A stretch of 64,000 nucleotides of DNA from NCBI GenBank assembly GCA_947488755.1, contig CANLAD010000001.1:1931501-1995500 (forward strand), written 5' to 3'. A program made the position numbers and the translations under genes. Each line of letters starts with the position of its first letter. Position 1 is the stretch's first letter. The notes beneath the pieces were generated by a model. That model was not told where the DNA came from. It searched no databases and worked only from the letters and a program-made list of their open reading frames with translations. Positions 32,316 to 34,787 of the stretch are shown here, one piece after another. This DNA comes from an uncultured Erythrobacter sp. Lineage in GTDB: Bacteria > Pseudomonadota > Alphaproteobacteria > Sphingomonadales > Sphingomonadaceae.

Positions 32316-32897
32316 TCAGCGCGAGCGCTTGAGCACCAGATACAGTGCGCCGTCGCCGCCGTGGCGAATATGGGCGCGGCGCACGGCGGCGATGGCATCG
32401 CCGTGGCGGCTCGCGGCGAGCCAGTCGAGCAGCTTGGCACGGATCGCCCCGCGCCGCGTCGCCCGGTCGGCAGGATCGACAGGTCGCTCGCGCCCCGCAA
32501 CCACCAACACCAGCCGAGCGCCCATGCTGCGCGCCTGATCCAGCCCTCCCATCAAGCGATCATAAGCTCCATCAAGGGTGTGACCGTGCAGGTCGAGCGT
32601 GTAGTCAGGCGCAATCTGCCCGGCTTTCAATTTGCGATTCCAGTGCGAATCAAGGCCGGTTCGATCCTCCCCGATCCGGGGAGGTGGGCGCCGCAAAGCG
32701 GCGGTCGGAGGGGAATTGCGGATCGGCAAGGCCTTCGGCGGTTTGCGCATTTCCGCGGGCGCCCCTCCACCATGCTTCGCATGGTCCCCCTCACCGGTCC
32801 GGGGGGGGGCCTTCCGCCCAACCAGCGGCGTCACGCTTTGCGCCAGCCGCGCCCATGCGGCCTGCTCTTCGTCGCTCAGGCCGCGCGGCGCTGTCAC
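32316..32897 (-). CDS. Smr (small MutS-related) domain protein containing an in-frame repeat element
   Basis: A 193-residue protein whose C-terminal 90 residues are an Smr domain: LDLHGHTLDGAYDRLMGGL (the LDLHG signature), GARLVLVVAGRERP and HGGDGALYLVLKR. Smr domains nick DNA or RNA, or act in ribosome rescue. It starts with GTG overlapping the mltA stop (GTGA, 32894-32897). Residues roughly 29-78, between the N-terminal helix (LSDEEQAAWARLAQSVTPL) and the Smr domain, are encoded by a palindromic repeat (32664-32813) and read KAPPRTGEGDHAKHGGGAP and RPPPRIGEDRTG, clearly foreign to the fold. The domain itself appears intact. Confidence 0.88.
   Translation of the reverse strand: MTAPRGLSDEEQAAWARLAQSVTPLVGRKAPPRTGEGDHAKHGGGAPAEMRKPPKALPIRNSPPTAALRRPPPRIGEDRTGLDSHWNRKLKAGQIAPDYTLDLHGHTLDGAYDRLMGGLDQARSMGARLVLVVAGRERPVDPADRATRRGAIRAKLLDWLAASRHGDAIAAVRRAHIRHGGDGALYLVLKRSR
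32664..32813. repeat. composite palindromic element inside the smr coding sequence
   Basis: About 150 bases built of nested palindromes: CCTCCCCG-ATC-CGGGGAGG (32666-32684), CGCCGC-AAA-GCGGCG (32689-32703), GGAGGGG (32707-32713) pairing with CCCCTCC (32762-32768), and ACCATGC-TTC-GCATGGT (32769-32785), then a C-run and G-run (32786-32810). All lie in frame and without stop codons. The style matches GC-rich dispersed intergenic repeats of sphingomonads; I cannot confirm copy number here. Confidence 0.75.
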
Positions 32898-34066
32898 CGG
32901 TCGGCCTCCAGCCGATCCAGCGCCCCGCGAGGCAACAGCACCAGCGCCTGTCCCCGCGCGCTCATGCCGCCGGCGATCGCGCGCGCATCCTCGCCCGCGC
33001 CCCAGAATGTGTCGAACCGGTTCGCGCCCTTGATCGCGCCGCCGGTGTCCTGCGCAATCCACAGCCCGTCCGCCTCGTCACGGTCGAGATCGAGCCAGAC
33101 CGGCGCGCCAAGCGGCACAAAGGCAGGGTCGGCGGCAACCGAGGTTTCGGGGCGTACCGGCACGCCAAGCGCACCGAGTGGCCCATCGCCAGTCAGCTCC
33201 CGAAAGAACACCCAGCTCTTGTTTAGGCGCATCAATTCCCGCCCTTCTGCCGGATTTTCTCGAATATAGGCCATAATCCCCTGCATCGATGCGTCATACT
33301 GGCCCGGCCCATCGCCAAGCAAACCGCGCTCGCGCATGATCCCGCCAATCCCGGTGTAGCCGCGCCCGTTCTGCCCGGCATAGCCGATGCGGATCACTTC
33401 GCCTTCCGGGGTAAGCAGACGGCCAGAGCCCTGAATCTGCAGGAAGAACAGCTCAACTGGGTCGGCGGCCCAGGCGATCACCGGCGCGCGGCCCTTGAGC
33501 GCGCCGTCCTCGATCTCGGCGCGCTCGTAATAGAGCACGAAGTCGCCGCTTTCGTCGTACCGGCCAAGCGGCGGACGTCCGGTGGGCTCTGCTAGCGGTA
33601 TGTCAGCGGGCCACGCACGTTCGAGGTCTGGCGGCATAGCGTAAAGCGGCGCATCGTAGCCCGGACGGCGCGTGCGCGAACCGGCAATCTCGGGTTCGAA
33701 ATAGCCGGTCGCAAAGGCGCTGCCCTCTCCGACACGAACCGGTTCGAAATACGAATCAAAAAACGATCGCGCGCTGGCGGATGGCCACCGGGCCGCGACC
33801 TCGCACGGCTGCTGCCAGTCGGACTGGCGGGTTAGCCCGCTCGCATCTTCGCGGGTGAGCAATTGCGGACAGGATCCGATAAAGCTGGCAAGCGCCCGCT
33901 CCGCATTGTCGGCGGATAAATCCAGCGTGGCGGCGGCTGGCCCGCTCGCCACCCCAGCCAGCACGGCGCTCGTGATGGCGGGCGCGGGGGGCGGTGCGGT
34001 GTCAGGAACGACGCGCCCACAACCGACCAGCAGAAATAGAAGCGCTGCTGCCGGGAGAATGCGCAT
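32894..34066 (-). CDS. mltA: membrane-bound lytic murein transglycosylase A
   Basis: A 390-residue outer-membrane lipoprotein (signal MRILPAAALLFLLVGCGRV, acylated Cys in LVGC) that cleaves glycan strands between MurNAc and GlcNAc to give 1,6-anhydro ends. MltA domain: FATGYFEPEIAGSRTRRPGYDAPLY; C-terminal 3D domain with the catalytic Asp in AQDTGGAIKGANRFDTFWGAG. ATG at 34066 has GGGAG upstream. Followed by smr with a 4-base overlap; the Tim44-like gene lies just upstream on the same strand, a conserved alphaproteobacterial trio. Confidence 0.95.
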   Translation of the reverse strand: MRILPAAALLFLLVGCGRVVPDTAPPPAPAITSAVLAGVASGPAAATLDLSADNAERALASFIGSCPQLLTREDASGLTRQSDWQQPCEVAARWPSASARSFFDSYFEPVRVGEGSAFATGYFEPEIAGSRTRRPGYDAPLYAMPPDLERAWPADIPLAEPTGRPPLGRYDESGDFVLYYERAEIEDGALKGRAPVIAWAADPVELFFLQIQGSGRLLTPEGEVIRIGYAGQNGRGYTGIGGIMRERGLLGDGPGQYDASMQGIMAYIRENPAEGRELMRLNKSWVFFRELTGDGPLGALGVPVRPETSVAADPAFVPLGAPVWLDLDRDEADGLWIAQDTGGAIKGANRFDTFWGAGEDARAIAGGMSARGQALVLLPRGALDRLEADR

Positions 34067-34118
34067 GGTCAGCTCCCGTGTATTCAGAGCGAAAGTATCG
34101 CCCCGCCGGGCGAGGGGA

Positions 34119-34787
34119 TCAACCCTCGTCGGTTTCGTCGAGCACCCAGTTCGGATCACGCGCAGCAACATTGCGGGCAAAAGTCCACACGTCGCGGCTT
34201 TCGATCGCATCGTCGAGCGAACCGGCCACGACATTGCCGTCGGCATCGCGCGTCACGGCGGCGATATCGGCGACGAACAGCACCGAAATGCGGGCCATGC
34301 GCTTATCGAGCGAGGCCGAGTGAATGCGCGTTTCTTCGATCCGGATCAGCTTGTTGTCGAGCACATGCCCGGCTTCGTTGCGTGCGTCGATCGCCGCCGC
34401 GAAGCCTTCGTAAACATCATCGTCGCAAAGTTCGCGCAGAGTTTCGCGATCGCCCTGCCAGAAGGCCTCGAGCACCATTTCGTAAGCGCCCTTTGCGCCT
34501 TCCATGAACTGCGACAGCTCGAAATTGCGATCGGCCTGCGCGATGTCGCGAATGCCGCGCTCGACCGCGGGCATGACCCCTTCGAGCTCGACCGCGCGGA
34601 CCGGCGCGTTCTGAGCGCCGGGTGCGGATGCTTGTGTCTGGCTTGGCTGCGGAAGCGAATTGTCGGCGGCGTCGAAACGCTGCGGGATCGATTCCTCTTC
34701 GTGTTCAGCCCGGCGACCGAGCACCGAGTACAGCCGAAGCCCGAGAAAAGCCGCGATCATGGCGAGGATGACAATTTCTAAGATCAC
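34119..34787 (-). CDS. Tim44/TimA-like domain membrane-associated protein
   Basis: About 222 residues: an N-terminal hydrophobic segment (ILEIVILAMIAAFLGLRLYSVLG), a polar linker, then a Tim44-like domain with IAQADRNFELSQFMEGAKGAYEMVLEAFWQGDRETLREL and DVWTFARNVAARDPNWVLDET. The mitochondrial relative Tim44 tethers the Hsp70 import motor; bacterial versions are inner-membrane proteins implicated in envelope biogenesis. The GTG at 34787 places the membrane segment right at the N-terminus as usual; longer starts would add an unlikely polar leader. Cotranscribed with mltA and smr, and divergent from secB. Confidence 0.88.
   Translation of the reverse strand: MILEIVILAMIAAFLGLRLYSVLGRRAEHEEESIPQRFDAADNSLPQPSQTQASAPGAQNAPVRAVELEGVMPAVERGIRDIAQADRNFELSQFMEGAKGAYEMVLEAFWQGDRETLRELCDDDVYEGFAAAIDARNEAGHVLDNKLIRIEETRIHSASLDKRMARISVLFVADIAAVTRDADGNVVAGSLDDAIESRDVWTFARNVAARDPNWVLDETDEG

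Follow-up and report, generated by a model that had tools for sequence, protein, structure and literature searches.

Rickettsia is the best-known setting for palindromic elements lying in frame in genes, and its reduced intracellular genomes could be the reason. The locus described here raises the question of whether a repeat of non-coding type has come to be translated in a sphingomonad. It lies in a 64,000-nucleotide stretch of the genome of an uncultured Erythrobacter sp. (the window), where nested GC-rich palindromes occupy the linker of the smr gene. The preliminary description placed them at 32664-32813; the palindromes are present and in frame on the minus strand, as it said, with coordinates 32663-32811, and the peptides that it quoted were exact. 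The features of the locus, in window positions, are as follows.

32319..32897, minus strand: smr coding sequence, 193 aa, GTG start (frame reading, PF01713, 32 orthologues aligned)
32328..32597, minus strand: Smr domain, C-terminal to the element (PF01713, E = 2e-14, residues 100-189 of 192 scanned)
32663..32811, plus strand (model orientation): whole GGGGAGG palindromic element, 149 nt (R1 covariance model, blast, alignment of six copies)
32663..32713, plus strand: unit 1, comprising the outer hairpin GATCCTCCCC-GGGGAGG, an inner hairpin, and GGAGGGG (pattern scans, structure)
32714..32761, plus strand: middle segment (six-copy alignment, orthologue alignment)
32762..32811, plus strand: unit 2, comprising CCCCTCC, the hairpin ACCATGCTTCGCATGGT at 32769-32785, and an outer arm (six-copy alignment, structure)
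32894..34246, minus strand: mltA, codirectional upstream neighbor, also one of the sequences behind the tree (PF03562 and PF06725)

The GTG start of smr at 32897 overlaps the stop of mltA (shared GTGA), and the nearest named smr loci are from Erythrobacter. The match of the protein to the NCBIfam model SmrA fell under the cut-off of that model. On the minus strand, the element is translated as APPRTGEGDHAKHGGG...RRPPPRIGED. Translation across it is supported because the N-terminal helix (L7, E11, W15, A19, V22, and P24 invariant in 32 aligned orthologues) and the Smr domain are conserved on its two sides in one frame; the proposal that the linker preceding the Smr domain contains a repeat of non-coding type, translated in frame, is thus supported. 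Codon use is coding-like to the right of the copy (0.18) and non-coding-like to the left (-0.18, over a stretch that includes DNA upstream of the GTG start), and the left-side score would count against translation through the element. In an AlphaFold2 model, residues 31-80 have a mean pLDDT of 42-52, and the Smr domain mostly has high pLDDT. Such low values for residues 31-80 are those expected of a disordered linker, here between the N-terminal helix and the better-predicted domain.

The element has a variable middle flanked by a pair of inverted GGGGAGG/GGAGGGG units and could fold as a four-arm cloverleaf. The consensus fold of the six copies in the source genome is a cloverleaf in which the outer arms form an inverted repeat, paired over about 20 nt; this pairing of terminal inverted repeats is seen both in the consensus fold and in single folds. 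Folded as DNA, the smr copy gave a z of -3.2 against dinucleotide shuffles, and three further copies from the same genome gave -4.3, -7.8, and -9.6. Two core patterns occur once each in the 64-kb window, against 0.00 expected from shuffles. Chance low complexity as the source of the palindromes was rejected on these shuffles of patterns and fold. The outer arm of unit 2 is degenerate in the smr copy (GGGGGGGGGCC), and its middle segment is 15 columns longer than in the other five copies. The translation of this middle (MRKPPKALPIRN) resembles the Lys/Pro-rich native linker of relatives, and we infer a native origin for it.

The absence of other copies from the genome would have spoken against a repeat; instead, the element occurs in at least six places. 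The covariance model R1 was built from six copies of the source genome, with the smr copy among them, and these six places were retrieved by scoring 150 of 1,507 candidates. The smr copy scored 97.6 bits (E = 1e-16) and the other five 121-136 bits, making it the most divergent of the six; its nearest full-length copy is 74% identical. Since R1 was trained on these same copies, independent evidence of dispersal comes from blast and from other genomes. Blast of the element against the source genome found further copies, including a match of 72% to the copy in the methylmalonyl-CoA mutase gene (mcm) over query positions 13-160 (E = 1.2e-14). Four of the six copies are in frame in genes, namely smr, mcm (L031), and valS twice (L034), and the remaining two are intergenic (L032 and L033). 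The valS gene was named from best hits and full-length orthologues, because the locus piece is partial and fell below curated cut-offs.

We therefore read the smr segment, with a probability of roughly 0.8, as one copy of a dispersed palindromic element of sphingomonads that is non-coding in type, has inserted widely, and has been kept when in frame. Copies lie both between genes and in frame within housekeeping genes. In the course of events proposed, copies would insert widely, and insertions that break the frame or the fold would be lost by selection. In-frame landings in tolerant loops would persist, translated as Pro/Gly/Ala-rich flexible segments, and the retained copies would then decay or be partly deleted. 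No function of the translated segment is needed by this account.

The smr linker itself is the least straightforward part of this picture. The preliminary description held that the palindromes add about 50 residues. The linker of the source genome, however, is 56 residues long, and the 34 readable rows among 36 others have a median of 57 (range, 48-70), so that the net gain is about zero; the 31 of these rows without a detectable copy have a median of 56 (48-68). The unchanged length suggests that the element replaced, or was absorbed into, an existing linker. Native linker may have been lost on entry, the halves may have been taken up separately, or the insertion may be old and its middle expanded. 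R1 found a copy at the same place in 3 of the 36 orthologue loci (L062, 65.6 bits; L052, 30.5 bits; L041, 28.8 bits). Most smr relatives thus lack a detectable copy (33 of the 36), and the refuting outcome named beforehand, the same segment in all relatives at similar divergence, did not occur. Fainter remnants were seen by eye, graded across L041, L042, L046, L052, L054, L058, and L062. In both the source genome and L052, the middle of the copy looks like native Lys/Pro-rich linker, and such a native-looking middle does not seem to fit a single insertion.

These same observations bear on the possibility that a single ancient insertion entered the smr linker of a common ancestor and decayed to Pro/Lys-rich sequence, with Erythrobacteraceae linkers being partly degraded element. 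The graded remnants in seven loci, the same-place copies in L041, L052, and L062, and the native-like middle between the halves would all follow from such a history. Linkers of Novosphingobium and Rhodobacteraceae, however, are of like length and show no trace by eye, and L062, the deepest-branching carrier, has palindromes too well kept for old neutral DNA. In a tree built from MltA, Tim44, and the Smr domain, the four carrier rows also fall apart from one another, requiring 4 changes against a mean of 3.9 for shuffled labels; 3 of the 4 changes are forced by well-supported branches. A single origin of the smr copies is therefore not supported by the tree, and we regard the ancient insertion as less likely than not.

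Dispersal of the element, as the preferred reading has it, was examined across the genus. At E <= 1e-6, R1 found copies in at least 18 of 61 genomes. The counts are lower bounds, since scoring was limited to 55 candidates in each genome. With 63 places fetched from elsewhere and the 6 of the source genome, 69 copies were available, measuring 104-155 nt end to end. A copy was called in frame if an open frame crossed it and codon use was coding-like on both sides. Twenty of the 69 passed. Two of these (L184 and L187) were rejected as in-gene candidates because they matched no Pfam family at E <= 1e-5, and the smr copy was added although it scored below the cut. The result was 19 of 69 copies in frame in known genes, of ten kinds; the remaining 50 were treated as not lying in frame within a gene. 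For naming, one protein of each kind of gene, ten in all, was compared with NCBIfam, and the rest were identified by matching flanks. The 19 copies are distributed as follows.

Source genome: smr, mcm, and valS twice
Single genes elsewhere: leuS (L150), glyS twice in one gene (L165), metH (L189), and urea carboxylase (L175)
trmD in six genomes: L155, L162, L171, L176, L194, and L196
ligA in two (L185 and L192) and bchB in two (L152 and L195)

Both orientations occur among the copies, and more than one frame is used. Those in genes fold as strongly as the rest (mean z of -7.4, n = 19, versus -7.7, n = 50), which implies that in-gene copies are recent or that their palindromes are renewed. Each of the 69 copies has at least one open frame. 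Of six possible frames, in-gene copies have 4.58 open, compared with 3.40 after shuffling, and other copies have 3.88, compared with 3.31. As this excess is modest, we do not claim that the element has evolved toward translatability.

The trmD locus offers the fullest view of a single site. The gene is present in 59 of the 61 genomes, and the loop, read between ALDS and RPILAMTPRG in the fetched DNA, is readable in 57 (those of G015 and G005 are cut by contig ends). It is empty in 39, filled by the GGGGAGG element in 7 and by other palindromic repeats in 9, and carries short inserts in 2, which give no sign of a palindrome (fold z of -0.2 each). A palindromic repeat thus stands in 16 of the 57, drawn from about four families, and filled loops measure 66-77 aa against 31-34 in orthologues. 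In the PDB, the site corresponds to a one-residue gap or insertion in the two alignments displayed (27 sequences matched). Six of the seven element copies are in frame. In the seventh, that of G012 (L337:456-587), the frame changes once inside the element and the gene is split over two frames, through sequencing error, real damage, or something odder.

The nine other trmD repeats form three groups (G031/G011/G055, G034/G027/G043, and G001/G000/G036). Seven of the nine were folded, six of them giving a z of -3.5 to -7.5 against mononucleotide shuffles. The last group matches R1 weakly (22.8 bits, E = 0.014) and may consequently be distant kin of the element, which makes the count of four families doubtful. 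The trmD insert of the source genome (L336, G000:C1:551254-551350) belongs to this group; it is a repeat, SPLPGEEGPGVGAPEPSTSHTHPSIPSLEGG, different from the GGGGAGG element. It folds weakly better than dinucleotide shuffles (z of -2.3), has 2, 12, 9, and 2 matches in four genomes, and has related matches in G036, G001, and G007. Another trmD insert has 39, 72, and 21 matches on both strands in its three carriers and none in the source genome, and other inserts recur in unrelated fetched loci. Some of the inserts other than the GGGGAGG element are thus dispersed too.

Similar turnover was seen elsewhere. At the first valS site, the filled form of the source genome has 77 aa, against 38-39 aa in empty loci; of 28 other loci, 23 are empty, 4 hold other palindrome-like repeats (z of -2.6 to -5.9), and G015 retains a remnant. 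This remnant (L297) is one outer hairpin of the element alone (NPPQNGED) with the frame kept, as if an internal deletion had occurred between the GGGGAGG arms. The second valS site has 80 aa in the source genome against 42-44 aa in 26 empty loci; it is filled by another repeat in G007, and one locus was unreadable. The mcm linker has 92 aa when filled, as in the source genome, and 50 aa in its short native form. In G013 (L311), a different palindromic insert (fold z of -4.7) stands in this linker where the source genome has the GGGGAGG element. Overall, most orthologues read at the sites of the element are empty or carry other palindromic repeats. By these loop lengths, valS, mcm, and trmD show clear net gains, of about 32-46 residues, and smr is the weakest example. 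As a separate observation, the mcm linker in the genus has two native forms, a short one and one with a segment of about 32 residues (GRDERGIPLPPSKIAELE-like), in a patchy distribution (L299, L312, L314, L315, L318, and L324-L326).

That the element might be kept in genes for a task at the RNA or DNA level, such as an mRNA hairpin, pausing, or a binding site, with translation incidental, would accord with its strong predicted hairpins and with in-gene copies keeping their fold as well as others do. We consider this improbable, as presence is patchy (18/61), both orientations are used, the host genes are unrelated, different repeat families occupy one site, and no Rfam family reached its gathering threshold within the window. 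Slightly less probable still is an origin of the smr segment as a normal Pro/Ala/Lys linker of low complexity, in which GC-rich codons happen to give a palindromic look and no mobile element took part at the site: the equal linker length with and without a copy, the degenerate outer arm, and the divergence of the smr copy from the other five agree with it, but the blast match to mcm, the fold, the core patterns, and the R1 score (partly circular, smr being one of six training rows) do not.

Beyond the genus, the dispersed element was sought with R1 at E <= 1e-10. With 17 candidates scored in each genome, matches were found in at least 45 of the 196 genomes that represent the order and in 19 of 63 genera, every one in the family of the source genome. 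Across the class, 3 of 190 genomes matched, one outside that family. We examined 42 further copies (29 loci from the order scan and 13 fetched), of which three came from a genome of the genus; 14 passed the codon test and 9 lie in known genes:

mcm: L216, L217, and L228
glyS: L218, L226, and L232
One each: truB (L221), a propionyl-CoA carboxylase-like protein (L230), and valS (L234)

L216, L218, L221, L230, and L234 were Pfam-checked, and the other four were named from their flanks. L219, L231, and L236 were rejected for lack of a Pfam family at E <= 1e-5, and L220 was dropped, with codon scores of 0.05 and 0.03. For the candidate L363, nothing exceeded a family cut-off. Other genera hold the element at the same mcm, glyS, and valS sites as the genus does. 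In glyS, copies from three genera share one site but are read in two frames (L165 and L226 versus L218), which argues for separate entries. The mcm copies of four genera (the source genome, L216, L217, and L228) share site, orientation, and frame; they could reflect old shared descent with losses.

Relationships among copies are suggestive of movement within genomes. The two valS copies of the source genome are each other's nearest (89%), the bchB and trmD copies of G023 are 86% alike, the ligA copy of G016 has its closest match elsewhere in that genome (86%), and the trmD copy of G032 is 87% identical to another place in G032. The best match lay in another genome for 54 of 78 copies, the 78 including nine rows from other genera under one label. 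The trmD copy of G013 most resembles copies of G023 that lie outside trmD and not the other trmD copies, a pattern that argues for independent entry at one site; the trmD pairs G025-G023 (89%) and G032-G014 (85%) look shared by descent. Judged by eye, some 3-5 native residues are missing where the element sits in trmD and valS, and a simple clean insertion is therefore not demonstrated. The analysis turned up neither a transposase nor a target duplication nor a polymorphic strain pair; the filled/empty trmD pair G025/G049 is too diverged for a duplication to be read. Mobilization by RAYT is ruled against by the absence of PF01797 (Y1_Tnp) from the source genome and by the lack of association across the 61 genomes of the genus, of which 4 carry this domain (2/18 element-bearing versus 2/43 others).

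On balance, we lean slightly toward a broader interpretation, in which several palindromic families of sphingomonads repeatedly enter the same loops of TrmD, ValS, GlyS, methylmalonyl-CoA mutase, and LigA in varying frames and orientations. Such loops would turn over by capture of selfish DNA, and linkers like that of Smr would be built from decayed copies. If so, the birth of protein segments from non-coding repeats would be directly observable between sister species. Selfish-looking DNA would keep supplying new protein segments, with different repeats having entered the same loops in relatives. Among congeners, the single trmD loop can be empty, filled, filled by a different repeat, or frame-shifted. 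These states permit direct tests of how often repeats become protein, of what the loop tolerates, and of what moves repeats that have no known transposase. For annotators and protein modelers, Pro/Gly-rich inserts of 35-50 residues in sphingomonad enzymes may be translated repeats.

Several known systems invite comparison. Rickettsia palindromic elements (RPEs) are about 150 bp long and fall into ten families, with 44 integrations in R. conorii genes, according to a review of MITEs (PMC10969869). As found here, RPEs comprise several palindromic families and lie in frame within numerous unrelated genes; the host here is a sphingomonad, however, the sequence is GC-rich, and different families occupy the same sites. 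The GGGGAGG element may thus be regarded as an analogue of RPEs and not a member, likened through descriptions of RPEs and not their sequences. The parallel drawn in the preliminary description was right in kind and, with ten kinds of gene in the genus, broader than proposed.

It is not the first of its kind in sphingomonads. For Erythrobacter litoralis and Sphingopyxis alaskensis, a 2013 report (PMC3733652) describes REPs within truB and within genes for tRNA synthetases, and translated palindromes in this group are therefore not new. As presented there, CGTC REPs occur mostly in alphaproteobacteria, without an associated transposase, as repeats and dimers, some inside genes. They are defined by a CGTC tag, a stem of 8-9 bp with A-T pairs at positions 1-2, a loop of 4-5, and a CCA tail. 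Units measure 20-40 bp, and most intragenic inserts consist of dimers or groups that encode 20-30 residues (PMC3733652). When unit 1 of the GGGGAGG element is reversed, CGTC, a CCA-like tail, and a loop of about 4 can be made out by eye in the six-copy alignment, but its stem begins with AG and has 6-7 bp, and unit 2 lacks CGTC. The element as a whole, moreover, is 104-155 nt long with outer GGGGAGG arms, in contrast to the 20-40 bp given for REP units. It thus falls outside the definition of CGTC REPs, and unit 1 may be distantly related to them. The nearest case to families sharing a site is Xanthomonas recB, where different REPs are reported at about the same site (PMC3733652). The literature searched, as available, gave no description of a GGGGAGG family, though the figures or supplement of PMC3733652 may include it. 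It likewise gave no case of several families at one protein site and, by title and abstract, no in-frame palindrome in a sphingomonad other than that report.

Like the enterobacterial RU/ERIC elements and Coxiella QMITE1, which are described (PMC2759123, PMC5896051) as small non-autonomous repeats overlapping or fusing with genes, the GGGGAGG element resembles MITEs, and it has terminal inverted repeats. It differs in that neither a parent insertion sequence, sought via PF01797, nor a target duplication was found here. With GTAG REPs it shares short inverted units in pairs, but its consensus has no GTAG tag and the source genome has no Y1_Tnp gene of the RAYT type.

A last observation concerns the DNA just downstream of valS in the source genome (L034:1590-1696), where frames read HCEERSDEAIQ and CFVAALLAMT, which may be the translation of the common CGTC-type repeat.
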